Assembly: GCA_947453465.1 (NCBI GenBank)
Contig: CANGGL010000013.1
Span: 1 to 36,149, forward strand
Length of the DNA stretch: 36,149 nt
Direction of reading: 5' to 3'
Origin: Microbacteriaceae bacterium
Lineage (GTDB): Bacteria > Actinomycetota > Actinomycetes > Actinomycetales > Microbacteriaceae
A program made the position numbers and the translations under genes. Below are positions 2,048 through 35,370 of this stretch, one piece after another (within the stretch, counting starts at the first letter, position 1; each line of letters opens with the position of its first letter). Below the pieces are notes generated by a model that was not told the DNA's origin, did no database searches, and saw only the letters and a list, made by a program, of their open reading frames with translations.

Positions 2048-2779
2048 TTATAGCTCGGCTAGGTTTCCTAGGTAGAGCTCAACCATCTTCGGGTCGTTCA
2101 GTAGTTCGCGACCAGTGCCGGTGTGGGCATCGGTGCCGTGGTCTAGGACGTAGGCACGATCACAGATCTGTAGGCAGCGACGTGCGTTCTGTTCAACCAT
2201 GATGACGGTTACGCCAGCGTGGTTGACTTCACGCACGCGTAGGAAGGCTTCATCTTGGCGAACCGGTGAGAGGCCAGCAGATGGCTCGTCGAGCAGCAAC
2301 ACCGATGGGTCAACCATCAATGCGCGACCCATGGCAACCATCTGGCGCTCTCCACCTGAAAGCGAACCGGCCTTCTGCGCACGGCGAGTGCCAAGGTCAG
2401 GGAAGATGCTGGTGACGAAATCGAATCGCTCCTGGAAACGCTTTGGGGTCTGGAAGACACCCATCTCAAGGTTCTCTTCGATGGTCAGGCTAGGGAAGAC
2501 GTTGTTGGTCTGAGGCACGAAAGCCACACCTTTTTCAACCAACTTATTGGCCTTGAGGCCGGTGATGTCTTCACCGTTGAGCTTGATCTTGCCCTCGCGA
2601 ACGTTGACCTGGCCAAAGATTGCCTTCAGCAGGGTTGACTTGCCGGCGCCGTTAGGGCCGATGATGCCGATCAATTCGCCTTTGTTGGCCACCAATGAAC
2701 AACCGTTAAGGATGTTGATGCCCGGAAGGTAACCGGCATGCAGGTCTAGCGCTTCAACTACTGGAGTCGTGTTGGTCAT
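2048..2779 (-). CDS. livF: Branched-chain amino acid-type ABC transporter ATP-binding protein LivF
   Basis: A 243-residue ATPase subunit. Visible motifs are Walker A GPNGAGKS (41-48), Q-loop Gln90, signature LSGGE (140-144) and Walker B LLLDEP with Asp164-Glu165, all intact. Length and the LSGGE form of the signature fit LivF rather than LivG. The start ATG overlaps the livG stop by one base (TAATG), indicating translational coupling. It is the last gene of the livH-M-G-F operon and is followed by a terminator. The UrtE branch (urea) has the same domain plan, so the substrate class stays open. Confidence 0.9.
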   Translation of the reverse strand: MTNTTPVVEALDLHAGYLPGINILNGCSLVANKGELIGIIGPNGAGKSTLLKAIFGQVNVREGKIKLNGEDITGLKANKLVEKGVAFVPQTNNVFPSLTIEENLEMGVFQTPKRFQERFDFVTSIFPDLGTRRAQKAGSLSGGERQMVAMGRALMVDPSVLLLDEPSAGLSPVRQDEAFLRVREVNHAGVTVIMVEQNARRCLQICDRAYVLDHGTDAHTGTGRELLNDPKMVELYLGNLAEL

Positions 2780-3636
2780 TAGATGCCTGCCTTAATCGAC
2801 TTGATTTCAACGGTGCCTAGATCGGTGTCAGCGTGTGCGCCAAGGTAGGCGTCAATGACGGCCTGGTCCTTCATGACATCTGCCGGTGGGCCTTCGGCCA
2901 CAACCTTGCCCTCTGCCATCACAATCACCCAGTCGGAGATGTGGCGAACCATGTGCATGTCATGTTCGACGAAGAGCACGGTGGTGCCATTCGACTTTAG
3001 GTCTTTGATGTGCTCGAGCAGGCTCTGGGTTAGCGCAGGGTTCACGCCAGCCATTGGCTCGTCAAGCATGACCAACTTTGGCTTGCCCATCAGTGCGCGA
3101 GCCATTTCAAGAAGCTTGCGCTGGCCACCAGAAAGTGAGCCGGCGTAGTCTTCGCGCTTAGCGTCGAGCTTGAAGCGGGTTAGCAGCGTGTCGGCGCTAG
3201 CGGTGATCTGGTTCTCCTGTGCCTTCCAGAGCGGGCGAACGAAAGATGCAAAGAAACCCTCGCCAACCTGGTTCTGAGCGCCCAGGCGCATGTTGTCAAT
3301 CACGGTGAGCAGGCTTAGGGCCTTGGTCAACTGGAAGGTGCGAATCATGCCGCGGCGAGCAACCTTATAAGGTGCAACACCGGCTAGGTTCTTGCCGTCA
3401 AAGGTCCAGGTGCCAGAGTTTGGCTTGTCGAAACCGGTGAGCAGGTTGAAGAACGTGGTCTTGCCGGCACCGTTCGGGCCGATCAAGGCGGTGATCTTTC
3501 CGCGAGGAATTTCAACGTGGTCGACGCTAACGGCAGTTAAGCCACCAAACTGACGAACTACCTTGTCGGCAATCAGAATAGGGTCAACTTTTTTACAGCC
3601 GGGTGCGGCTGCGCCAATTGAGATTTCGTTAGCCAT
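2779..3636 (-). CDS. livG: Branched-chain amino acid-type ABC transporter ATP-binding protein LivG
   Basis: A 285-residue ATPase subunit, partner of LivF in the heterodimeric motor. Walker A GPNGAGKT (53-60), signature LSGGQ (168-172) and Walker B LVMLDEP with Asp192-Glu193 are intact. The MIRTFQ stretch near residues 97-102 is typical of LivG. About 20 extra N-terminal residues precede the core domain. The start overlaps the end of livM by 8 bases, and the stop overlaps livF by one, so the three genes are coupled. Cytoplasmic face of the membrane. Confidence 0.9.
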   Translation of the reverse strand: MANEISIGAAAPGCKKVDPILIADKVVRQFGGLTAVSVDHVEIPRGKITALIGPNGAGKTTFFNLLTGFDKPNSGTWTFDGKNLAGVAPYKVARRGMIRTFQLTKALSLLTVIDNMRLGAQNQVGEGFFASFVRPLWKAQENQITASADTLLTRFKLDAKREDYAGSLSGGQRKLLEMARALMGKPKLVMLDEPMAGVNPALTQSLLEHIKDLKSNGTTVLFVEHDMHMVRHISDWVIVMAEGKVVAEGPPADVMKDQAVIDAYLGAHADTDLGTVEIKSIKAGI

Positions 3637-4615
3637 TGAACTGAATCTCCTTCTTGTTTCCGAGGAAACCTTGAGGTCGGAAGATAACTAGCAACATCAG
3701 GATCAGACCGACCAGTAGGAAGCGAATCTGCGCTACCTGCTCGACCTGAAGGAACGGAAGCAGGCCGGCATCAACCAAGATGCCAAGTGCGCTTTCGATC
3801 AGGGTCATCAGGGCGAAGAAGATCATGCCGCCAAGGACTGGGCCAAGCAGGGTAGCAGCGCCACCGAGCAACAGGATGGTCCAGGTGATGAAGGTGAAGT
3901 TGGTGCCCCAGTTGCTTGGCTGGTTGGTCTGTGATGACATCACGAAGATCATGCCGCCGAGGCTGGCGATGCTTCCACCGATAACCAATGCTTGCAATTT
4001 ATAAGAAAATACGTTCTTACCGAGTGCACGAACTGCGTCTTCATCCTCGCGAATTCCCTTGAGAACACGACCCCATGGGCTGCGGGTCAAGGCGTAGAGG
4101 AAGAAAACGGCGATGCCGACAACAACCCAAGCCACGATGCGCATCCAGACCTCGCTCGAGGTTAGGGTCACGGTGCCGAGGTTGAAGGTTAGGTCAGCAG
4201 GCAGTGGGTTCAGGTTGTAGAACTCTTCACCGAACTGGCTAACGCCGGCTGAACCACCGGTGATTGGTTCAGCGGTTGACGAGCCGACGTAAAAACGTAG
4301 AGCCTGAGCCGCTGCGATGGTCACGATGGCCAGGTAGTCGGCACGCAGGCGAAGCGTTGGAATACCCAGGATGGCCGCGAAGCCCATCGAACAAATCAGA
4401 CCGAACAGAATCGAGCCCCAGATGTTCCAATGGAAATCAAGGGTTGCGATAGCAAAGCCGTAACCACCGAGGGCGGCGAATGCTGCCTGACCGAAGTTGA
4501 GCAGACCGGTGTAGCCGAAGTGCAGGGCCAAGCCGATTCCGCAGAGGATGTAGCCCACGGTCATCGGTGAGATGAGCGCGTTGCCGGCTAGTGAAAAGAT
4601 GCCAATAAGATCCAT
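3629..4615 (-). CDS. livM: Branched-chain amino acid-type ABC transporter permease LivM
   Basis: A 328-residue polytopic permease with about eight to ten hydrophobic segments. Family landmarks are GLLNFGQAAFAALGGYG near residues 37-53, the LRLRADYLAIVTIAAAQALR block near 88-107, the cytoplasmic coupling segment SPWGRVLKGIREDEDAVRALG near 188-208, and the terminal IFRPQGFLG. It pairs with LivH to form the channel. It lies 9 bases downstream of livH and overlaps livG by 8 bases. No defect is visible. Confidence 0.9.
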   Translation of the reverse strand: MDLIGIFSLAGNALISPMTVGYILCGIGLALHFGYTGLLNFGQAAFAALGGYGFAIATLDFHWNIWGSILFGLICSMGFAAILGIPTLRLRADYLAIVTIAAAQALRFYVGSSTAEPITGGSAGVSQFGEEFYNLNPLPADLTFNLGTVTLTSSEVWMRIVAWVVVGIAVFFLYALTRSPWGRVLKGIREDEDAVRALGKNVFSYKLQALVIGGSIASLGGMIFVMSSQTNQPSNWGTNFTFITWTILLLGGAATLLGPVLGGMIFFALMTLIESALGILVDAGLLPFLQVEQVAQIRFLLVGLILMLLVIFRPQGFLGNKKEIQFNG

Positions 4616-4624
4616 GATTTATAC

Positions 4625-5929
4625 CTAGCCGATTCTCTGCTTCTTGCCCAGCACACCCTGCGGGCGCACCACCAAGATGACGATCAAAATCAAAAGCGCC
4701 GAAACATACTTGAGCTCCGAAGGCATCCAGATGGTTGAAACCTCAACCACCATTCCGATGATGAGAGCACCAACAGCGGCACCCAGTGCGGTGCCGAGAC
4801 CACCGAGGGTAACTGCAGCGAACAACAAGAGCAGAAGGTCGAAACCGACGCTCCAGTTGGCCTGGAACTGAAGGCCGTAGAGCACACCGGCAAGACCGGT
4901 AAGCGCTGCCGCAACCAACCAGACGATGCGGATGATCTTCTCAACGTCGATACCGGTTGAGGCGGCAAGTGAAGCGTTGTCGCTCACTGCGCGAGTTGCC
5001 TTACCGATGCGGGTGCGGGTCAGGAACAAAGCCACACCGATAAGTGCTACCACGCTGATTGCCATGCTGATCAGTGTGGTGTTGCTAGTGAAGATTGGAC
5101 CCAAGGTGATGATGGTCTGACCACCAGACATGTCCTTGGTGTCGCCGCCGAAGAACAACAGCAGCACGTAACGAGAGACGATGCCGAAACCGATCGAGAC
5201 GATCATCATTTGGTTTAGACCAAGACGACGCTTGCGCAATGGGCGCCAGATGGCCGCATCTTGGAACCAGCCAAATGCCATCGCGGCCAGAACTGCCAGC
5301 AGGCCAGCAACCACGATGTTGAGGTGCAAGAAGCTATAGCCGAGCCACATGATCATGGCGCCGAGGGTAACCATCTCGCCGTGGGCGAAGTTGTTGAGGC
5401 CGGTGGTGCCATAAATAAGGGTGATGCCGATGGCTGCAATCGCCAGCATTAGGCCGAAGTTAAAGCCGGCGAAAACACGGATGACCAGTTGTTCCCATAT
5501 GCTCTGAGCTTGCACCGGAGCCGCAGAACCAAACTTGAAAAGGACTGCTGCGAAGTCGGTCTGGGTTAGGTCGGCCTCGCCAATGGCGCCGTCCTTGGTA
5601 GCCAAGTGGAATTCTTTCGGAATGGTGGTGGTGTCTAGAGTCACCTTCCAGTGACCGTCGGTCGGAACCATGATGGTCCACTCGCCGAACTCGTCCGACT
5701 TGGTCTGGAACGACTTTGCATCCTGCGAAGCGGTAATGGTCACGCCCGGGATTGGGACGTCTTTTTCCTGCAGGGTTCCCGCGATTGTGAACGCATATGT
5801 CGATGGGTCATCGGCTGTGTGCGCCTGTGCCATCGCCGGAGAGGCGCCTAAAAGTATGGAGAACAGGATGGCGATTGCGCCCAGTAGGGCACCCGCTCGG
5901 GTCCTCGATTTTGCTGCTAGCTGGCTCAA
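4625..5929 (-). CDS. livH: LivH-type ABC permease fused to an exported N-terminal beta-domain
   Basis: A 434-residue protein, about 130-140 residues longer than ordinary LivH. Residues 1-36 form a signal peptide or first membrane anchor ending in PAMAQA. Residues about 43-135 read as a carboxypeptidase-regulatory-like or transthyretin-like beta-sandwich (IAGTLQ..., IPGVTITAS, then GEWTIMVP and GHWKVTLDT strands). The rest, from about 148, is a standard LivH permease with GTTGLNNFAHGEMVTLGA and a final VVRPQGVLG. It starts with TTG 5929, chosen because GGAGG lies 5 bases upstream and the signal peptide begins there. First gene of the operon. The extra domain would face outside, near the binding protein. 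UrtB permeases of urea systems also have N-terminal extensions, so a urea/amide role is an alternative. Confidence 0.85.
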   Translation of the reverse strand: MSQLAAKSRTRAGALLGAIAILFSILLGASPAMAQAHTADDPSTYAFTIAGTLQEKDVPIPGVTITASQDAKSFQTKSDEFGEWTIMVPTDGHWKVTLDTTTIPKEFHLATKDGAIGEADLTQTDFAAVLFKFGSAAPVQAQSIWEQLVIRVFAGFNFGLMLAIAAIGITLIYGTTGLNNFAHGEMVTLGAMIMWLGYSFLHLNIVVAGLLAVLAAMAFGWFQDAAIWRPLRKRRLGLNQMMIVSIGFGIVSRYVLLLFFGGDTKDMSGGQTIITLGPIFTSNTTLISMAISVVALIGVALFLTRTRIGKATRAVSDNASLAASTGIDVEKIIRIVWLVAAALTGLAGVLYGLQFQANWSVGFDLLLLLFAAVTLGGLGTALGAAVGALIIGMVVEVSTIWMPSELKYVSALLILIVILVVRPQGVLGKKQRIG

Positions 5930-12555: not shown

Positions 12556-14859
12556 ATGTCAGAACTAGACCTTTTTGCCCAGCTGCCCGCCGACTCACTT
12601 CTAGAGGGGCTGAACCCGCAGCAGCGCGCCGCCGTTGAGTATCGCGGCAAGGCCCTGCTCATCGTTGCAGGTGCCGGTTCTGGCAAAACCAGGGTACTGA
12701 CCCACCGCATCGCCCACCTCTTGGCCAAAAAAGAAGCCTGGCCATCACAGATTCTGGCTATCACCTTCACCAATAAGGCCGCCGCCGAAATGCGTGAGCG
12801 CGTGCGTCACCTGCTTGGTGAGAGTGCCGATGGAATGTGGATCAAGACCTTCCACTCGGCCTGTGTGGCCATTCTTCGCCGCGAGAGCGAGCGCCTCGGG
12901 CACAACTCAAACTTCACCATCTATGACTCGGGCGACAGCCGCGCCATTCTGAAGCGTCTGATCAAAGACCTCGGTGCCGACATTCACAAGCTGACTCCGG
13001 CCGGGGTTGGCGCCGCGATTTCGAATGCCAAGAATGAGCTCGCCGATGCCGAGTCTTATGCTCGCAATGTTGACCAGGCCGACCCGGTGGCTCGCATGAT
13101 TGCCGAGCTTTTCTCTCGCTACCAGGCCGAGCTGCGCCGCAACAACGCCTTCGACTTCGATGACCTGATCGGTGAAACCGTTCACCTTTTCCGCGCCTTC
13201 CCAGATGTTCTGGCGCAGTATCAGCACAAGTTCAAGCACATTCTGGTCGATGAGTACCAAGACACCAACCACGCTCAGTACGCGCTGGTTCGCGAGTTGG
13301 CTCAGACCGCATCGCTCACCGTGGTTGGTGACTCAGACCAGTCGATTTATGCATTCCGTGGTGCCGACATCCGCAACATCAGTGAGTTCGAGAAGGACTT
13401 CATCGGGGCCAAGACCATCCTGCTCGAACAGAACTATCGTTCCTCGCAAAACATCCTGTCGGCGGCTAACGCGGTCATCTCAAACAACTTTGATCGACCA
13501 AACAAAAACCTCTGGACAGACTCTGGCAACGGTGACGCCATCGTCGGTTTCACCGGTTATTCGGCGCACGATGAGGCGCAGTTTATTGCCGACGAAATCA
13601 ACAAGCTGCACCACGATGGCACCAACTACCGCGACATCGCGGTCATGTATCGCACCAACTCACAGACCCGTGCCTTGGAAGAAATTTTCATTAGAGCGGG
13701 TCTGCCTTACCGCGTTGTCGGTGGCACCAAGTTCTACGAGCGCGCCGAAATCAAGGATGCCTTTGGCTATCTGGTTGCCGTGAATAATGAGCTCGACGAC
13801 CTTGCTACCCGCCGCATTCTGAACGTTCCGAAGCGCGGCATCGGCGATGCCTCTGAAACCCAATTGGCCAACTATGCCGAGCGCAACCAGCTTTCGATGC
13901 GCCAGGTTCTGGCTCACGTTGGCGACCTAGGTTTTGGCCCGAAGATTACAGGAGCAATTCAGCAGCTCAGTGACCTGCTGATTGAACTGGTAGCGATGGC
14001 TAGGGCCGAGCCGGTTGACGTTGTTCTTCGAGCAGTGCTCGAGCGCACCGGTTTGATCGAGAGCCTTCGGGCCAGCCGCGACCCGCAGGATGAAGCCCGC
14101 GTTGAGAACCTCGAGGAACTTGTTTCGGTGGCTCGAGAATTCCAGCGCAACAACCCTGAGGGCCGACTGCCCGACTTCTTGAACGAAGTTGCCCTGGTTG
14201 CCGCCGCCGATGAAATCGATGACGAATCTGGAACCGTCTCGCTGATGACCCTGCACACCGCAAAGGGTCTTGAGTATGACGCGGTCTTCTTGACTGGCCT
14301 GGAAGAGTCACTTTTGCCTCACCGAATGTCTTTCATCACCCCTGGCGGGCTCAATGAAGAACGCCGTTTGTTCTACGTGGGCATCACCCGCGCCCGAAAG
14401 AAGTTGCACCTGAGCCTGGCCATGACCCGCACCACCTATGGTGAGTCAGACGCTTCGACCCCGAGCCGTTTCTTGAGCGAGATTCCGACCGACTTGATCG
14501 ATTGGCGTGAGTCTGGTGCCACGCGTGCGATGGCCACCTCGAGATACCGCAGTTCAATCGCCGACACCCAGGGTTATGGCCGCGCCTCATCCGACCATGA
14601 AACCGGCAGCTCGAGCTATGGCGGCACGCCATCGGCCAAGCCAAAGACCGAGTGGAAGGGCGCCATTTCATCGGTGCGCAACAACGAGGGGCTTCAGCTT
14701 GCAGTTGGTCAGATGGTTTCACACTCTGACTTTGGCAAGGGCAAGGTCATCGCGGTAGCCGGTGAAGGCAACCGTCAGACTGCCGAGATTCACTTTGGCA
14801 GCATCGGCGTCAAGAAGTTGCTGGTCAAAGTTGCTCCGGTCACAGTGATCGAAGAATAG
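12556..14859 (+). CDS. pcrA: ATP-dependent DNA helicase PcrA/UvrD
   Basis: A 767-residue superfamily 1A helicase acting in nucleotide excision repair and removal of stalled complexes. Motifs include the Q-motif LNPQQRAAVEY, Walker A AGAGSGKT (38-45), TFTNKAAAEM, motif II DEYQDTN (from 232), GDSDQSIYAFRGA, QNYRSSQNIL, and VSLMTLHTAKGLEYDAVFL with the downstream ERRLFYVGITRA. After a low-complexity linker at about 660-710 the C-terminus (VGQMVSHSDFGKGKVIAVAG...) is the PcrA-type Tudor-like domain that contacts RNA polymerase in relatives. All helicase motifs are intact. Placement before sucCD matches mycobacterial uvrD1. Confidence 0.95.
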   Translation: MSELDLFAQLPADSLLEGLNPQQRAAVEYRGKALLIVAGAGSGKTRVLTHRIAHLLAKKEAWPSQILAITFTNKAAAEMRERVRHLLGESADGMWIKTFHSACVAILRRESERLGHNSNFTIYDSGDSRAILKRLIKDLGADIHKLTPAGVGAAISNAKNELADAESYARNVDQADPVARMIAELFSRYQAELRRNNAFDFDDLIGETVHLFRAFPDVLAQYQHKFKHILVDEYQDTNHAQYALVRELAQTASLTVVGDSDQSIYAFRGADIRNISEFEKDFIGAKTILLEQNYRSSQNILSAANAVISNNFDRPNKNLWTDSGNGDAIVGFTGYSAHDEAQFIADEINKLHHDGTNYRDIAVMYRTNSQTRALEEIFIRAGLPYRVVGGTKFYERAEIKDAFGYLVAVNNELDDLATRRILNVPKRGIGDASETQLANYAERNQLSMRQVLAHVGDLGFGPKITGAIQQLSDLLIELVAMARAEPVDVVLRAVLERTGLIESLRASRDPQDEARVENLEELVSVAREFQRNNPEGRLPDFLNEVALVAAADEIDDESGTVSLMTLHTAKGLEYDAVFLTGLEESLLPHRMSFITPGGLNEERRLFYVGITRARKKLHLSLAMTRTTYGESDASTPSRFLSEIPTDLIDWRESGATRAMATSRYRSSIADTQGYGRASSDHETGSSSYGGTPSAKPKTEWKGAISSVRNNEGLQLAVGQMVSHSDFGKGKVIAVAGEGNRQTAEIHFGSIGVKKLLVKVAPVTVIEE

Positions 14860-14874
14860 GCAAAAAACCGGCTC

Positions 14875-14907
14875 AAAAGCCCGCTAACTGAGCAAATAAG
14901 CGCTTTT
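14875..14907 (+). terminator. Weak hairpin after pcrA
   Basis: AAAAGC (14875-14880) pairs with GCTTTT (14902-14907), with a small inner stem GCT/AGC at 14883-14885 and 14891-14893. The T-run is part of the stem. A weak terminator is plausible but not compelling. Confidence 0.35.
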
Positions 14908-25753: not shown

Positions 25754-25792
25754 CTCCGGCAAGAAACTCCCCGCAGTTATTTGCTTTGTGTC

Positions 25793-28255
25793 ATGCACAG
25801 AAAAAACACACACAGATGGTCGAAGCTTTTCTCGGCCGCAAGCATAGTTGCTGTGCTGTTCGGGGGATTGGTTTCGCAATCGGTTCGAGCAGTCAGCACC
25901 AACCCAGCGCCGGTGTGCGTTGGAGCAACCTGCTCGGTGACTTTTGAGTACACCGGCGACTACTATTTCTGGACCCCACCGACCGGTGCGAAGAACCTAA
26001 CCTTTGACCTGATGGGTGGCCAGGGTGGCCGCGTCGGCGGTTTGGGTGGCCGAGTTCAGGGCAGTATCCCAACCATGCCGGCATCGCTATACATCTATGT
26101 TGCCGGTGCCGGTTCGCAGGGCAACTCGGTTGCCGGCGGTTTCAATGGCGGTGGCGCTGCCGGTTCGGGCCGAGCCGATGAAGGTTCTGGTGGTGGAGCA
26201 ACAGATATTCGCATCACCACCGCGCTCGCCGATCGACTCGTGGTTGCTGCCGGAGGCGGTGGTTCGGGTGGTTTCAGCGGTGGTGTCGGCGGTAACGGCG
26301 GTGGTCTAAACGGCAATGCCGGAGTTACCGGCCAGGGCCAGGGTGGTTCGGGTGCAAGCCAGACTGCCGGCGGCAGCGGCGGTTATCCCAATGGCGGCAG
26401 CTGGGGAGCCAATGGCCAACTTGCCAACGGTGGCGCCGGTGGATCCAGCACTGTCTCTGGTGGAGGCGGTGGAGGCGGCGGTCTCTACGGTGGTGGTGGC
26501 GGTGGAGCCGACATCGATTCTTGCTGCACCAACGGTGGTGGTGGCGGTGGTGGTTCAAGTTTCGCCAATGCCACGGTTACCAGTTCGGTGACGCACACCG
26601 CGGGTTATCGCTCGGGCAACGGTGTCGCGATTTTGACCTATGTCATGCCGCCGCAGGTGACCACCTTTGCACCGGCGCTCAACCTAACCAACACCGAGCC
26701 GGTCAACTACAACCTGGTCTTCAATCAGGCGGTCACCGGGCTTACCAATACCGATTTTGTGACCACCGACTCAACCGATACCTGCTCGACCATTGCCGTC
26801 AGCGGTTCGGGCACCACATACTCGGTTGCGGTTTCGGGTTGCACTGATGGGGTGCTCAAGTTGACACTCATCGCCGATGCAGTTTTGGGCACGCTGACCG
26901 GCCCGGCGTTGGCTGCCGCGGCGGCCCCAGTCACGATCGATCGGGTGGCGCCGACGGTCACGGTGGCACCGGCTGCCACAACAACAAACGCCGCAACGGT
27001 TCAGTTCAACCTGGTGGCAAATGAGCTCATCACCGACCTGACCGCCCTCGACCTCACCATCACCGGTCTGGGTTGTGGCTTTGGTTCGGTGAGTGGCTCG
27101 GGCACGGCCTATGTGGTGAATGTCACCGGTTGCGCCGATGGGGCTAGTGCTGCGGTCAACCTCGCGGCAAATTCAATCAAGGATGCCGCCGGCAACCTCG
27201 GCCCGGTGGCTGCCAGAGCCTCGGCGGTCAGCACGATCGATCGCACACCTCCGGTGTTCTCAATCGCTAACCCGGCCAGCCCAACCGTTGCTCTGAGCAT
27301 GAGCTATGTGTTCACTGCGAATAAGTCAGTCACCGACCTAGCGGTAAACGATTTCACAATCACTGGCTCGGGTTGCTCGGTGAGTGCTGTCTCGGGTTCA
27401 GGTAGCGACTACCTGGTCACGGTTACCGGTTGCGCCGACAGTGTCTCGGTCTGGTTGACCATGAAGGCAAACTCGGTTCAAGATATCGCTGGCAACTGGG
27501 GCCCCGCTGCCGCAACGGCAACTGCCGGGGCGGTGATCATCGGTGTTCGGCCGGTGGTTGCTCCGACACCGACTGCATCGGCAAGCGCATCTCCGTCAGC
27601 TTCACCGTCAGTGTCACCCTCCGTTTCTCCGTCGGCCGCACCTTCGGCTAGCCCAACGGTAACGGCGAGCCCAACGGTAACGGCAAGCCCGGCACCCGTC
27701 GCGCCAACGGCACAACCGGCACCTCAAGACACCGGATCTTCAGCCCCGGTGGCGCCGGTTGCTTCACCGTCGCCAGTCGCTTCACCTAAGCCAGAGCCGA
27801 CTAAGGACGCCACCGATCCATCCACAGACGTGATTGATCTTGGAGCTTTGCCAATCGTTCCGGTGGTGTCTGGGCGAGTTCCGCCAAGTAGTGGTTCAAC
27901 CGGTGGGCTCGCTGCGGTCGGTTCGGCGACGAAAAGCTACCGATCGGCAATCAAAGTAACCGCGGCTGATTTGGAGGCCGATGCCGAGGTTGCTGGTTCG
28001 GCCGATGATGGGCTGTTCGAAGAGGGCAACTCCGCGCTAACCGTCCAGGCTGAAGGGGCTCAAATCGGTTTGAGTGACTCGCCAACGCTTAGGGCGGGCA
28101 AACCCGGCATCGATTGGGTGGCCTGGCGGCCGCTGATGATCGGCGCGGCAGGAATCGCCCTGGTTTTGGTCGCGGCGGCGCTAGCCATCCGTGTGGTCAA
28201 AACGCGCAGAAGGCTCAGCCCAAAGGTTAGAAGGTTGGTGCCGCTAACTGACTAG
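25793..28255 (+). CDS. Glycine-rich, Ig-like repeat surface protein anchored by a C-terminal helix
   Basis: An 820-residue exported protein with four parts. A signal peptide (about 1-33, cleavage near VRA) is followed by a Gly_rich (PF12810-like) region at about 35-280, with GGG runs, GGGATDIR and a VVAAGGGGSGG core. Three Big_12-like Ig repeats of about 100 residues (283-585) each carry a Cys...VSGSG..Y.V.V.GC.D pattern, suggesting one disulfide per repeat. Then comes a Pro/Ser/Ala/Thr-rich stalk (585-680) and finally a transmembrane helix (about 777-803) with a basic tail. There is no LPXTG sorting motif. It is likely an adhesin or other cell-surface fibre; no enzyme domain is seen. ATG 25793 is chosen for the signal peptide. 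The stop shares CTAG with the convergent purU stop. Confidence 0.8.
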   Translation: MHRKNTHRWSKLFSAASIVAVLFGGLVSQSVRAVSTNPAPVCVGATCSVTFEYTGDYYFWTPPTGAKNLTFDLMGGQGGRVGGLGGRVQGSIPTMPASLYIYVAGAGSQGNSVAGGFNGGGAAGSGRADEGSGGGATDIRITTALADRLVVAAGGGGSGGFSGGVGGNGGGLNGNAGVTGQGQGGSGASQTAGGSGGYPNGGSWGANGQLANGGAGGSSTVSGGGGGGGGLYGGGGGGADIDSCCTNGGGGGGGSSFANATVTSSVTHTAGYRSGNGVAILTYVMPPQVTTFAPALNLTNTEPVNYNLVFNQAVTGLTNTDFVTTDSTDTCSTIAVSGSGTTYSVAVSGCTDGVLKLTLIADAVLGTLTGPALAAAAAPVTIDRVAPTVTVAPAATTTNAATVQFNLVANELITDLTALDLTITGLGCGFGSVSGSGTAYVVNVTGCADGASAAVNLAANSIKDAAGNLGPVAARASAVSTIDRTPPVFSIANPASPTVALSMSYVFTANKSVTDLAVNDFTITGSGCSVSAVSGSGSDYLVTVTGCADSVSVWLTMKANSVQDIAGNWGPAAATATAGAVIIGVRPVVAPTPTASASASPSASPSVSPSVSPSAAPSASPTVTASPTVTASPAPVAPTAQPAPQDTGSSAPVAPVASPSPVASPKPEPTKDATDPSTDVIDLGALPIVPVVSGRVPPSSGSTGGLAAVGSATKSYRSAIKVTAADLEADAEVAGSADDGLFEEGNSALTVQAEGAQIGLSDSPTLRAGKPGIDWVAWRPLMIGAAGIALVLVAAALAIRVVKTRRRLSPKVRRLVPLTD
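27651..27686 (+). repeat. 18-bp tandem repeat in the stalk of the surface protein
   Basis: Two copies of an 18-base unit beginning GCCCAACGGTAACGGC (27651-27668 and 27669-27686) differ at one base, encoding a repeated Ser-Pro-Thr-Val-Thr-Ala unit. It is the clearest DNA-level repeat in the low-complexity stalk and a likely site of length variation. Confidence 0.7.
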
Positions 28256-30456: not shown

Positions 30457-31332
30457 ATGACTGCAATCAAGCTAGACGGCCTTGCCACCGCAAAAGCGAT
30501 CAAGGCTGAACTTGCCGAACGCGTCATCCACCTGAAGCAAAAGGGAATCACGCCAGGCCTTGGCACTCTGTTGGTTGGTGACGACCCTGGTTCGCACTCG
30601 TATGTGGCTGGCAAGCACCGCGATTGTGCCGAGGTTGGCATTCACTCGATCCGAATTGACCTACCTGAGTCTGCCTCTGCAGCCGACGTTCGTTCGGCTA
30701 TTCGTGATTTGAACTCAGCCAGTGACGTCACCGGTTACATCGTGCAGTTGCCGTTGCCGTTTGGCCTAGATACCAACGCGATGCTTGAACTCATCGACCC
30801 GGATAAAGATGCCGATGGCCTACACCCGATCAACCTCGGGCGTCTGGTTCTCGGTGTCTCGGGCGAACTAACCTCACCGCTGCCTTGCACCCCGGCCGGC
30901 ATCGTTGAGTTGCTATCCCGTTATGAAGTGCCACTCAAGGGCGCCGAGGTTGCCATTATTGGCCGTGGCGTAACCGTTGGGCGACCACTTGGGCTTCTGA
31001 TGACCCGCAAGGGCATCGATTCGACAGTCACCCTTTTGCACTCGGCGTCTCGCAATCTCGAAGAGGCCGTCAAGTGCGCTGACATCGTCATCGGAGCCCT
31101 CGGCGTTGCTCACTTTGTTCAGCCCGAATGGATCAAACCTGGTGCGGCTGTTTTGGATGTTGGTATCACCCGCATCGAAGGCGAAGGCGAAGGCGGCAAG
31201 GCGACCCTGGTCGGCGATGTGGACCCGCGAGTTGCTGAAATCGCCGGTTGGTTGTCACCAAACCCTGGTGGCGTTGGCCCAATGACCCGCGCAATGCTGG
31301 TCAAGAACGTTGTCGACGCCGCTTCTCGCTAA
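30457..31332 (+). CDS. folD: Bifunctional methylene-THF dehydrogenase / methenyl-THF cyclohydrolase
   Basis: A 291-residue FolD that oxidises 5,10-methylene-THF to methenyl-THF with NADP and hydrolyses it to 10-formyl-THF. Visible are the catalytic-lysine segment [15 protein letters not shown] (Lys53), [17 protein letters not shown] and the dinucleotide-binding [15 protein letters not shown], the Gly variant common in actinobacteria. The C-terminus has [15 protein letters not shown]. It follows glyA directly, so serine carbon flows to 10-formyl-THF for purN and purH. The stop TAA overlaps the convergent amidase stop (CTAA). Confidence 0.96.
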
Positions 31333-32342
31333 TCGTGGGAGATTTTGTATTCTTCAGCCAGCGCGCGTAGCTTTTTGTGAACTCCGCCATAGGCCTGCGC
31401 CTCATTTAGCGTCCACTTAGGCAACTTGGCAACCATCGTGTAGTTCGGGTCGCAAACGTTCGCCGCAGGTGAAAGGCCCATCTGGCTGACCAGTTGCATG
31501 GCGTCTAGCGCATCCAACCCGGTCAGGTCGCTGGTCCAGTTAATCAATTCTTTTTGACTGATGCGGTAGGCATCTTCGAGTGGGCGAACCGAGCCGGTGG
31601 CCATGATGAATTCATCGTTCTCGAGCCGTGGCCATGAGGGCGCTGCACCCTTGATTAGGTCAACGGCGATGACCGAGTTCATAGCCGACTCAATGCCGGT
31701 GCCGCAGACTTCGCCCTCGCCCTGACGAGCGTGGCCGTCACCGATTGAAAGCATTGCTCCGGCCACGTTTACCGGCAAATAAAGTGTGGTGCCAACGCGT
31801 GCCTCAGGGGTGTCCATGTTGCCGCCATAGCTGTTTGGGGTGACCACCAGGCGCACCTCGCCGCTGGCTGGGGCAACACCGATGGTGCCGTGCATTGGGT
31901 CGAGCGGCATACGCACTCGATAATCAGATCTTCCGGCCTTGAAGCCGGCGGTCCATGATTCTAGGTCGATGTCATAGAACCAGACGCGCTCTTCTAGGTC
32001 GTCATGCAACATCGCGGTTTCGTGAGTTGCAGTGAGAGCTCCAAAGGAGGGGAAGGTGCAGGAGATTCCATAGTCCCGTGCCGGCACAATCGAGACAAAG
32101 TGCACAGCCAGCAAATCACCAGGCTCCGCTCCTTGAACCTCGATTGGGCCAGACACCGGATTTAGCTCGGCGAAGTCGATTACTTTACTGGGGATGTCAA
32201 GCGGCGACTTCACGCGACCACCGAAACAGTCTTCGGTGGAGACTTCAATGAGATCCCCGGGCTTGACCGACAGGAGGGGATTCCTGCCACCGAAGGTGTA
32301 CGAATACTCGCTTGGTGATGGACGAAGCTCGTGGATGCTCAT
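31329..32342 (-). CDS. Acetamidase/formamidase family protein
   Basis: A 337-residue FmdA/AmdA-family amidase, a cytoplasmic zinc-type hydrolase class that splits formamide or acetamide to the acid and ammonia. Typical segments are [47 protein letters not shown] and [24 protein letters not shown]. The start ATG 32342 gives the family-like MSIHELRPS beginning with a purine-rich AAAGAAAGAG upstream; longer starts would run into the permease gene. It lies 16 bases after the permease gene and is last in the amide cluster. Formamide versus acetamide cannot be decided by eye. Confidence 0.88.
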
Positions 32343-32358
32343 TGAAGTTACTCTTTCT

Positions 32359-33765
32359 TTACTCGACCGAGATGGTCTTGATTTCGCGACCGCGGGCTTT
32401 GAGGACCACGGCAACGATGATTCCGATTGCTAGCCACGCGAGGCCAAGAACCTGTGCAGCGGCGCGTGCGTTGTAAAGCACGAATGCCAGCACAATCAAG
32501 CCCATGGCTGGGTAGATCAGGTGAATGAACCAGCGCTTTGACTTCTGCTTCACAATGAACCACCAAATAACCGAGGCGTTCAGAAGCATGAAGGCAAGGA
32601 TGGCGCCAAAGTTGACCAGAGCCGAGATAGCCACCAAACCGTCTGGAAGGGTGGTTAGGAAAACGCCTAGGGCTACTGAGATAGCAACCACGAGAAGAGT
32701 TGCGTTCCATGGAACCTGACGCTTGCTGCTTACCTTGGCCAAGAACTTAGGTAGCTGACCGTCGCGAGCCATCGCAAAGATCAAACGTGCTGTGGCGGCC
32801 TGGGCAACGAGTGCGTTAGCAAAGCCCCAGGCAACAGCGGTTGAGACAGCGGTCAGAATAAACATGAAGTGACCGCCGGCAGTCTCAGAGGCAGCATAGA
32901 AAGCAACACCGGTTGGGTCACCATTCTTGATTAGAGCCGCTGGGTCTTCAACCAACATCGATGCAACCCAGGTCTGAGCGATGAAGAGCACGCCAACTGC
33001 TAGCAATGAGTAAATCATTGAGCGGCCGAGTGACTTGCTGGTGCCAGAGTTCTCTTCTGCAAGAGTGGCGATTGCGTCGAAGCCTAGGAATGATAGAACG
33101 GCAATCGAAGCTGCGCCGAAAACTAGTGGCCATGAGAAGGTATCTGCGTTGAAGAAGGCGTTGAAGCTGAAGCCGTCGCCCTTGCCCTGGGTCAGAGCGA
33201 CGATGCCCACGACCAAGAAGATGGAAAGTGCAACCAGCTCGGCGACGAGCATGATCTTGTTTACCAGAGCGGTCAACGAAATGCCGAGGTAGTTGACCAC
33301 GGTGTTCAGCGAGATGAACGCAAGCAACCAAACCCAAACCGGAATGCTTGGGATGATTCCGTTCATTGCCAAGCCGGCAACAAAGTAAAGGAGTGCTGGG
33401 ATAAGGATGTAGTCGAGAAGAATCATCCAACCGGCGATAAAGCCAACCGGCTTGCCAATTCCGCGGCCGGCATAGGTGTAAACCGAACCTGACATTGGGA
33501 AGGCCTGGGCCATCTGTGAATAAGAGTTGGCTGAGAACATCATGCCAACCATCGCGATGATGTAGGCAAGGGCAATCATGCCGCCAGACGCCTGGAAGAC
33601 GCCACCGAAAATACCAAACGGTGCAATCGGCACCATGAAGATTAGTCCGTAGGTCAGGAGGTCGCTGAACTTCAGTGTTCGCTTAAGCTCCTGCTTGTAA
33701 CCAAACTGTTCGATGCCTGGGTCATCTCCAGCACCTGAACCCGGAAGGGTTGAATGTGTGCTCAC
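32359..33765 (-). CDS. APC-family amino acid/amine permease
   Basis: A 468-residue permease with about twelve membrane segments, beginning in the first helix with SDLLTYGLIFMVPIAPFGIFGGV. The unwound helix-1 region and the LSFLGFDAIATLAEENSG segment are characteristic of the amino acid-polyamine-organocation superfamily. It begins with GTG 33765 and no strong ribosome binding site. It lies between the AmiC-like gene and the amidase on the same strand, so it probably imports the amidase substrate or a related amine or amide. A perfect palindrome sits 24 bases upstream. Confidence 0.87.
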   Translation of the reverse strand: MSTHSTLPGSGAGDDPGIEQFGYKQELKRTLKFSDLLTYGLIFMVPIAPFGIFGGVFQASGGMIALAYIIAMVGMMFSANSYSQMAQAFPMSGSVYTYAGRGIGKPVGFIAGWMILLDYILIPALLYFVAGLAMNGIIPSIPVWVWLLAFISLNTVVNYLGISLTALVNKIMLVAELVALSIFLVVGIVALTQGKGDGFSFNAFFNADTFSWPLVFGAASIAVLSFLGFDAIATLAEENSGTSKSLGRSMIYSLLAVGVLFIAQTWVASMLVEDPAALIKNGDPTGVAFYAASETAGGHFMFILTAVSTAVAWGFANALVAQAATARLIFAMARDGQLPKFLAKVSSKRQVPWNATLLVVAISVALGVFLTTLPDGLVAISALVNFGAILAFMLLNASVIWWFIVKQKSKRWFIHLIYPAMGLIVLAFVLYNARAAAQVLGLAWLAIGIIVAVVLKARGREIKTISVE

Positions 33766-33789
33766 GTTCTATCCAATCTGCAGCTAGTC

Positions 33790-33811
33790 AATATTTCCAA
33801 ATGGAAATATT
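33790..33811. promoter_or_regulatory. Perfect 10+10-bp palindrome upstream of the APC permease
   Basis: AATATTTCCA (33790-33799) and TGGAAATATT (33802-33811) are perfect inverted arms around AA. It lies 7 bases after the AmiC-like stop and 24 bases before the permease start, just downstream of a TATAGG that could be a -10 box. No T-run follows on the minus strand. Size and symmetry fit an operator for a dimeric regulator such as the nearby MarR protein. Confidence 0.6.
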
Positions 33812-33818
33812 CAGTAGC

Positions 33819-34859
33819 CTATACCCTGCTGAAGGTCTCAGTTGGTTCTAAATCGGCGCCGATTGCAATTGCAATTTTGGCCGTCTTGCGCTCGGACAGT
33901 GTTTTATTAGGAATTGAGAACCCGGCAACGGCGAGGCTGGCCAATAAATTTACGCCATCGTAACAACCCTCGGCATAGGTGCCGGGCAGTGGAGCCTGAT
34001 AACCGAACCGGGCTGAATAGGCTTCCATCAGTTTTAGGTGCCGATCATCGTCTTGCCTTATGAAGCTCGGCATCGCCGAATAAAGGTTTCCACTGTCATC
34101 TCCACCGGCAGCCACGAGGCAGTTTTCATCGAGAGCACTGCACAGCCTCACAAAGTGATTCGCTGCACCAATCTCAACAATGGTTCGGTTGAACTCGATG
34201 CTGTCGCGGCCAATAAGCGAAACCAAGATTCCCTCGGCGCCTGATTTCAAAGCGGTATGAGCAAGCTCCTCAACGTCAACCTGGCCGGTTGGGATGAGTC
34301 TGTCCATGACCACCGTCTGCCCCAGGTCGTGCAGCGCTCGACGTGCGGCGCGGTGAACCTGACGCGGCCAAACATAGTCGTTGCCAATTAGGGCCCAAGT
34401 TGAAATCTTGCGGTGCGCCGAAAGCCAGGCGATTGGCTGGCGGAGTTGTTCGCTCGGGCTGGTGCCAAGAAAGACAGAGCCCGGCTTTGCGGCTGCGCCT
34501 TCGTGCGGCGGAGTAAAGATGTATGGGACGCGGCCGTTGAGCATCAACTCAACTGCGGCTCTCACATTTGATGGGTGTGTTCCAACGAGGCCGTGCACCA
34601 GGTGTGAAGAAACCAAAAGGTCAACCTCGGCGGCAACCTCTTCGGGCCTCTGGCCGCCATCCACGATGACCAGCTCGATCTGGCGCCCGGTGGCCAGCGC
34701 CACCTCTTCTGTTGCCAGAAGGGCGCAGTTCATAATGGCTGGGCCAGCCTGCCCCATGATTCCCGAGAGCGGAACGATTAGTCCGATTGAGAGCGTGGTT
34801 GACTCAGGTCCGCGCAACAAGGCGTCGCTTGTCATGATTTGTTGGACGACTGAGCTCAC
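33819..34859 (-). CDS. AmiC-like amide-binding protein without signal peptide (putative cytoplasmic sensor)
   Basis: A 346-residue type I periplasmic-binding-fold protein of the AmiC/FmdC/UrtA group. LSIGLIVPLSGIMGQAGPAIMNCALLATEEV is the first strand and helix, and WALIGNDYVWPRQVHRAARRALHDLGQTVV is the group's hallmark. The N-terminus (MSSVVQQIMTSDALLRGPEST) has no signal peptide or lipobox, so it should stay in the cytosol, like Pseudomonas AmiC, which senses amides and restrains the antiterminator AmiR. No AmiR/ANTAR gene is in the window; a divergent marR is next door. GTG 34859 lies six bases after CATACT (leaderless type); ATG 34835 is an alternative. It heads the amide cluster with the permease and amidase. 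Confidence 0.78.
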   Translation of the reverse strand: MSSVVQQIMTSDALLRGPESTTLSIGLIVPLSGIMGQAGPAIMNCALLATEEVALATGRQIELVIVDGGQRPEEVAAEVDLLVSSHLVHGLVGTHPSNVRAAVELMLNGRVPYIFTPPHEGAAAKPGSVFLGTSPSEQLRQPIAWLSAHRKISTWALIGNDYVWPRQVHRAARRALHDLGQTVVMDRLIPTGQVDVEELAHTALKSGAEGILVSLIGRDSIEFNRTIVEIGAANHFVRLCSALDENCLVAAGGDDSGNLYSAMPSFIRQDDDRHLKLMEAYSARFGYQAPLPGTYAEGCYDGVNLLASLAVAGFSIPNKTLSERKTAKIAIAIGADLEPTETFSRV

Positions 34860-34861
34860 TC

Positions 34862-34885
34862 GATAAGTATGGCCTACTATTTATC
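34862..34885. promoter_or_regulatory. Imperfect inverted repeat between AmiC-like gene and marR
   Basis: GATAAGT (34862-34868) and ATTTATC (34879-34885) form 7-bp arms with one mismatch, with AGTA/TACT nested inside. The site covers the presumed -10 box of the AmiC-like gene (CATACT on the minus strand, 34866-34871), a good position for MarR repression of both divergent genes. Confidence 0.35.
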
Positions 34886-34911
34886 TACGTAGCTCTAGAG
34901 GGGAGTTGGCA

Positions 34912-35370
34912 ATGACCGGTGCCGCAAGCACGTCAAGCAGCTTCCTGCGCACCAAGGGCATGGCTCAGGCGCTCTGGGATTTGAAGTCGATTCAAAGCGC
35001 ATTGACCTCTGGCTTAGAAGTTGCGCTTAGTGAAGTTGGCTTCACCGCCGATCAGTTCCAAGTCCTATTCAGTATTTCGAAACTTGGCTCACCAACCATG
35101 GGTGAGATTCTCGGGGACGTAAACATGGCAAATGCTAGCCTCAGCCGCATTGTTGATTCTCTCGAAGACCGAGCCCTAGCCTTCCGGTTACCCAACCCAT
35201 CTGATCGTCGGCGAATCACGGTCAACCTCTCAGACATGGGAGTTGCCAAACTTGACCAGGTTCTGAGCTCCCTATCTGCCTGGGCCTCGGCTTCAGATGG
35301 TGTTATCGACGTTGAAATGGCCGAAAAACTGAGGGCACTGGCTCAGAAAATCGGCAAGTCTGACCTCTAG
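34912..35370 (+). CDS. MarR-family transcriptional regulator
   Basis: A 152-residue winged-helix regulator. The DNA-binding part covers about residues 42-105: FTADQFQVLFSISKLGSPTMGEILGDVNMANASLSRIVDSLEDRALAFRLPNPSDRRRITVNLSDMG, including the DRR wing typical of MarR proteins. ATG 34912 has GGGGAG six bases upstream and is preferred to TTG 34906. It is divergent from the AmiC-like gene, the usual arrangement for a MarR protein controlling its neighbour. It probably represses the amide cluster and itself; whether it senses a small molecule or the AmiC-like protein is open. Confidence 0.88.
   Translation: MTGAASTSSSFLRTKGMAQALWDLKSIQSALTSGLEVALSEVGFTADQFQVLFSISKLGSPTMGEILGDVNMANASLSRIVDSLEDRALAFRLPNPSDRRRITVNLSDMGVAKLDQVLSSLSAWASASDGVIDVEMAEKLRALAQKIGKSDL

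Follow-up and report, generated by a model that had tools for sequence, protein, structure and literature searches.

How is an amide receptor of the AmiC kind connected to transcription when its neighbour is a gene of the MarR family instead of amiR? This question is raised by a small cluster for amide use in a Microbacteriaceae bacterium, a freshwater-type actinobacterium (assembly GCA_947453465.1, contig CANGGL010000013.1), of which the whole stretch analysed, here called the window, comprises 36,149 nucleotides. The cluster consists of a minus-strand operon, with gaps of 53 bp (receptor to permease) and 16 bp (permease to amidase), and of a marR gene on the plus strand that is divergent from the receptor gene and separated from it by 52 bp:

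31329-32342, minus strand: amidase of the PF03069 (acetamidase/formamidase) family, 337 amino acids (aa), ATG start; Pfam FmdA_AmdA, 9.9e-31
32359-33765, minus strand: APC-superfamily permease, 468 aa; Pfam AA_permease_2, 1.9e-39
33819-34859, minus strand: AmiC/UrtA-fold receptor, 346 aa, probably leaderless GTG start; Pfam Peripla_BP_6, 2e-48
34912-35370, plus strand: MarR-family regulator, 152 aa from the ATG; Pfam MarR, 8.7e-10

These matches and coordinates agree with the initial annotation, made from the sequence alone, which had described an amidase, an APC permease and an AmiC-like binding protein on one strand with marR diverging from the binding-protein gene. By its signal-less receptor, neighbouring MarR and linked enzyme, the cluster is a MarR-coupled amide receptor module of the Mycolicibacterium smegmatis AmiA/AmiC type, with an APC permease as variation and an enzyme gene for amide use (FmdA_AmdA) inside the receptor operon, and the analysis of relatives has provided evidence that this kind of receptor/MarR system is wider than its studied examples.

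A receptor without signal peptide

The receptor reading frame begins with the GTG at 34859, the earliest possible start after the preceding stop codon, and there is no start further upstream. A -10-like hexamer was found 6-7 nt ahead of the receptor start in all 12 loci compared, namely the window, L001-L010 and L083, with 4-5 of the 6 consensus letters in the ten loci that were scored and no Shine-Dalgarno-like string upstream of the start in those ten; L003 and L007 were judged by eye, and L008 and L083 are identical in this part. A box at this distance from the start codon is the arrangement of leaderless transcripts, so the receptor start is probably leaderless. In the window the element is placed as follows:

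34866-34871, minus strand: probable -10 box CATACT of the receptor-permease-amidase operon, 4 of 6 consensus letters, 6 nt before the GTG

The AlphaFold model of the receptor (41-row alignment) reached a mean predicted local distance difference test score (pLDDT) of 92.9, and its residues 6-16 form a strand and a helix. A misread start hiding a signal peptide was rejected on the basis of the missing upstream start, the conserved start context and the ordered N terminus, and the earlier statement that the binding protein lacks a signal peptide was borne out. Foldseek ranked highest the urea-binding protein 8TG1, AmiC structures containing acetamide or butyramide (1PEA, 1QNL) and UrtA, with identities of 17-20%; against AmiC 1PEA the template modelling (TM) score was 0.82 at 20% identity. 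The start context and the model support a cytosolic, AmiC-like receptor, and the nearest folds bind urea or acetamide, which counts in favour of an amide as its ligand. With regard to the binding proteins of ATP-binding cassette (ABC) importers of the UrtA/FmdD type, the receptor has no signal and the operon no ABC genes. The second half of the label "AmiC/FmdC-like" in the initial annotation was loose, because in Methylophilus FmdC is a porin and FmdD the binding protein.

Conservation of the receptor/MarR pair

The relatives considered were the best 80 of 227 receptor matches, selected by receptor peptides alone, so that the choice was not biased towards MarR, and a pair was counted when a MarR match lay within 1.5 kb, anchored on the start of the receptor domain. 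MarR adjoins the receptor in 69 of these 80 relatives, which come from two phyla (Actinomycetota and Pseudomonadota); the conservation of the pairing, proposed initially as a check, was therefore found. Divergent orientation was observed in 58 pairs and codirectional orientation in 11, the latter indicating that nearness is kept and not only a shared promoter. The gap between the MarR match and the receptor domain was at most 300 bp in 58 pairs, 300-500 bp in 9, 601 bp in L018 and 997 bp in L031, and elsewhere in the 80 loci there were 5 MarR matches among about 944 crude open reading frame (ORF) calls. All 38 MarR rows scanned (one from the window, 33 from the 69 pairs and 4 from further loci that were fetched) match both PF01047 and PF12802. 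Chance adjacency was rejected on this pairing together with the correlated divergence described below.

Four relatives were unreadable upstream (L009, L021, L033 and L035), including L021 because its first 812 bases fail to match its near twin L013, and seven have no MarR (L022, L029, L056, L061, L065, L045 and L037). The first five of these seven carry N termini of the twin-arginine translocation (Tat) type; a BPD_transp_2 ABC permease gene lies downstream of the receptors of L022, L029, L056 and L065, and amidase genes lie upstream of those of L022 and L061. L045 has neighbours of the same ORF clusters and an unclear N terminus. Absence of export was associated with MarR pairing (67/2/2/6 table, Fisher p 3e-6, with L009, L033 and L035 dropped as cut upstream and L021 kept as no-MarR); the signal-peptide script is crude, its matches in L023 and L024 being read as over-extended starts and that in L037 as unconvincing. 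The 80 loci also contain 43 further binding-protein ORFs, and those listed have mostly Tat-like or lipoprotein-like N termini.

MarR and receptor distances were correlated over the 69 pairs (r 0.68, with at most 0.11 reached in 500 permutations) and also within phyla (r 0.90 in 26 Actinomycetota and 0.60 in 42 Pseudomonadota). At the level of sequence divergence this shows shared descent of the two proteins, not contact. In a quick receptor tree of 117 rows (midpoint root, exported paralogues thinned to one in three, support by the Shimodaira-Hasegawa-like approximate likelihood ratio test only), the distribution of the MarR label, carried by 82 receptors, requires 7 changes versus 30 in shuffles. 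The receptors and their no-MarR sisters separate from other binding proteins (support 97). Of the 8 rows without MarR, 7 fall into a single group (95) and L037 is placed elsewhere; the sister clade of the MarR-paired receptors is exported and sits with ABC-importer genes. One ANTAR-linked AmiC row groups with UrtA (95), being a single row on a long branch of this tree; its gene lies on a plasmid of Agrobacterium and is followed there by an ANTAR gene and urt genes. The topology suggests, without proving it, that the two wirings, through ANTAR and through MarR, are of separate origin.

With regard to an AmiC-AmiR wiring, the receptor has the AmiC fold, and no match to PF03861 (ANTAR), the domain of the AmiR partner, was obtained in the assembly of the window (G000; 1.43 Mb, 74 contigs, 85% complete). 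The same search was positive in 10 of 12 genomes holding relatives, which indicates that the model works, and without match in the other 2. When the 80 loci were searched with a local ANTAR profile, derived from one AmiR-like query plus the four matches to it, the only match was weak (E 0.0085); it lies in L023, some 3 kb away from the receptor. The AmiR-like gene that the initial annotation had named as possible counter-evidence has thus not appeared beyond this match and within that assembly.

The enzyme and the transporter differ among the loci, so that the receptor/MarR pair stays while they change. Permease and PF03069-type amidase matches lie downstream of the receptor in L001-L010 (the amidase of L007 being cut by the contig end) and follow it in the Actinomadura loci L013 and L021. 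L016 and L017 show a permease match and no amidase match, and an L016 ORF that clustered with amidases was not counted as such, having no Pfam match. Altogether, the window amidase is matched in 18 of 80 loci and the APC permease is present at L001-L010 and four Actinomadura loci; amide-related neighbours among the relatives include FmdA_AmdA, amidase PF01425, AmiS and nitrile hydratase. In the four Pseudomonadota genomes that were asked (L051, L055, L060 and L071), an amidase-signature (PF01425) match starts, judged by contig coordinates, at most 60 bases from the end of the fetched locus; the open frame that contains it is 803-841 aa long. At L055, an ABC_tran ORF (13723-14907) runs past the locus end. 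From these frames, the last importer ATPase appears to be fused to the amidase in the Pseudomonadota clusters, a fusion that could couple uptake and hydrolysis. A flotillin-like ORF cluster (c6) occurs in 29 of 80 loci, often directly after the receptor; its member L055:8193-9809 matches Flot/Band_7 in Pfam and would be an unusual partner for an amide importer.

Regarding the other proteins of the cluster, the closest solved structure to the amidase is 5UBU (1.5e-70), and the permease matches NCBIfam models such as BcaP only far under the cut-off. The marR ATG at 34912 is preceded by GGGGAG, and a start at TTG 34906 would give 154 aa; the product is the sole strong PF01047 match in the genome (40 bits), the other five comprising one at the 24.6-bit cut-off and four below it, and its model (38-row alignment, pLDDT 92.3) has the helix and wing pattern of MarR. 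Among 79 genomes searched, 48 belong to the genus of the window, its own included and many of these assemblies being incomplete, and a receptor match of at least 59% identity was found in 3 of the 48 (G000, G001 and G045); the distribution of the cluster within the genus is patchy. An ORF read as folD in the ORF list is convergent with the amidase end, and a gene for an nrdH-type glutaredoxin lies downstream of marR. Elsewhere in the window, a binding protein with a signal (616-1875) and ABC-type genes (2048-5929) were read as a branched-chain-type importer, and by eye 25781-28255 encodes a large predicted surface protein that is rich in glycine, with a stalk rich in Pro, Ala and Ser and a membrane segment at the C terminus.

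Intergenic region and proposed mechanism

Two further elements can be placed around the start of the receptor gene:

34875-34880, plus strand: possible -10 box TACTAT of marR, by direct reading
34862-34885, strand unspecified: candidate MarR operator, an imperfect inverted repeat with core AGTATGGCCTACT (34866-34878) over both putative -10 boxes

The window contains the core AGTATGGCCTACT a single time, and L001 and L083/L008 have it at the corresponding position. In these loci and the window AGTAnGnCnTACT covers the putative -10 boxes; half of it would be conserved as promoter in any case. A 24-nt block in 11 Roseobacter-type intergenic regions is 93% conserved versus a mean of 65% (standard deviation 17), taken over an aligned stretch that includes coding ends and some near-identical loci. 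Both the window repeat and this block are operator candidates only.

A MarR dimer would bind the 52-bp gap between marR and the receptor gene and repress the receptor-permease-amidase operon, probably together with marR itself. An amide would enter via the APC permease and bind the cytosolic receptor of AmiC fold, which in this loaded state would relieve repression, most simply by binding MarR and removing it from the DNA. The amidase would then free ammonia and carboxylate, making the operon substrate-inducible. That MarR acts as a repressor is probable, and that the receptor acts through it is fairly likely; the whole scheme, with repression of the divergent operon by MarR and its relief by the amide-bound receptor, is favoured with moderate confidence, and the chances of direct receptor-MarR contact are even. 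In the M. smegmatis ami operon, according to a review (PMC12719403), AmiA is a negative and AmiC a positive regulator, which fits a receptor antagonising a repressor. The literature search returned no report of an AmiC-like receptor in contact with a MarR protein.

Several observations weigh against this proposal. L037 is signal-less yet has no MarR, and several loci, for instance from Dactylosporangium and Nocardia, have no amide enzyme in the parts examined. Only 2 positions distinguish the MarR-paired receptors (82 rows) from those without MarR (8 rows), which outlines no contact surface; no receptor-MarR fusion was found, no ORF being common to the 149 receptor and 92 MarR matches. The best inverted-repeat score of the window's intergenic region is non-significant (233 of 2000 shuffles were as good), and that top-scoring repeat differs from the candidate operator. 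The Roseobacter-type block is no clean palindrome (12 of 22 letters) and holds TTGAC, possibly kept as a -35 box.

Part of these results would suit a MarR protein that senses the amide or its product directly, the receptor having a different function, for instance in modulating the amidase or the permease. Small-ligand binding is usual for ordinary MarR proteins, and neither a contact surface nor a fusion speaks for a receptor partner; however, 69 of 80 loci retain the pairing, in two phyla and beside differing enzymes and transporters, and in the corresponding mycobacterial operon AmiC regulates positively (PMC12719403), so direct sensing was considered unlikely. The receptor might also work on transcription by another route, as a co-activator or with an undetected antiterminator, while MarR answers a different signal. 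This has its precedent in AmiC itself, which works via the antiterminator AmiR (PMC13209695), but the ANTAR searches gave no match in the 85%-complete assembly or in 2 of the 12 holder genomes and one weak match in 80 loci, and this route was judged quite improbable.

The exported sister clade beside ABC-importer genes would agree with a receptor serving as uptake helper, that is, a solute-binding protein with an unusual export route or a misread start. The absence of an upstream start, the start context in 12 of 12 loci and the ordered N terminus oppose it, as do the mostly Tat-like or lipoprotein-like N termini listed for the other binding proteins of the 80 loci, leaving it very improbable. 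Chance neighbours, or a merely shared neighbourhood, were given a negligible probability in view of the 69 of 80 pairings and the correlated divergence.

Comparison with known systems

The window cluster resembles the M. smegmatis acetamidase operon (amiC, amiA, amiD, amiS, amiE): in both, an FmdA_AmdA amidase is preceded by a receptor without signal peptide and a MarR that diverge from each other. AmiS_UreI matches were obtained in 14 of 118 genomes in the genus to which G086 belongs (Mycolicibacterium hodleri, the genome with L027), and a divergent receptor/MarR pair was present in 6 of 8 stretches fetched; in L167 the order is receptor (minus), MarR (plus), AmiS and an FmdA_AmdA protein of 415 aa. 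Acetamidase matches were found in 137 of 396 genomes, and of 9 further loci fetched, the L167 order was seen in 5 of 5 with an acetamidase of at least 93% identity, the pair occurring in 1 of 4 more distant ones and being absent in 3. With L167 included, the divergent pair heads 6 of 6 Mycolicibacterium-type AmiS-acetamidase loci (acetamidases at least 93% alike), a layout which we take to be that of the M. smegmatis ami operon. One report names amiC, amiA, amiD and amiS in a figure legend (PMC11005228), and from layout and names AmiA would be the MarR protein and AmiC the receptor. The "new way of wiring" suggested initially could not be maintained, since the same pair heads these AmiS-acetamidase operons and matches a genetically studied layout. 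The APC permease instead of AmiS proved a true difference: the Mycolicibacterium operon has an AmiS channel and a 415-aa acetamidase following MarR, whereas the window has an APC permease and a 337-aa enzyme whose gene follows the receptor.

Komeda et al. reportedly described in 1996 NhhC/NhhD and NhlC/NhlD of Rhodococcus rhodochrous J1 as AmiC-like/MarR-like regulators of amide-induced nitrile hydratase genes; these clusters differ from the window in enzyme and gene order. Nitrile hydratase alpha matches were found in 82 of 298 genomes, and the receptor adjoins MarR in 2 (L130 and L135) of 20 stretches picked. The pair also lies beside nitrile hydratase on two plasmid records picked from the match list, L149 (Rhodococcus sp. 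M8-35) and L152 (Agrobacterium vitis); the Rhodococcus strain comes from nitrile-contaminated soil, and in L149 (9016-11580) an IS481 transposase gene interrupts the AmiC-like gene that neighbours MarR and nthBA. Near Mycobacteriales nitrile hydratase genes, five binding-protein-fold proteins with no evident signal peptide (L131:2426-3844, L132:10895-12319 and others in L133, L139 and L148) have about 120 extra N-terminal residues, SRPBCC-like by eye, with no Pfam match there in the 3 of 5 scanned. The regulators of the mycobacterial acetamide-inducible promoter and of nitrile hydratase may thus belong to one receptor/MarR family in two phyla, tied to several amide enzymes and transporters. 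Direct gating of MarR by a binding-fold receptor becomes testable in many small systems, and the annotation of such receptors as transporter components should be regarded with caution.

The likeness to NasS-NasT is that there, too, a nitrogen source acts on a regulator by way of a receptor (PMC3795266), the differences being the nitrate/nitrite ligand and an RNA-binding partner. The window receptor shares with AmiC of Pseudomonas aeruginosa a cytosolic location and the same fold, but there the partner is an ANTAR antiterminator, AmiC is a negative regulator and it silences its partner until amide binds; relief of repression by the window receptor would be of opposite sign. Tentatively, and with rather less than even confidence, binding-protein folds may have been recruited to the cytosol at least twice, one line holding an antiterminator (AmiC-AmiR) and an independent one, spread over Actinomycetota and Pseudomonadota, holding a MarR repressor or stripping it off, in which a MarR that binds no ligand itself would be gated by the receptor.

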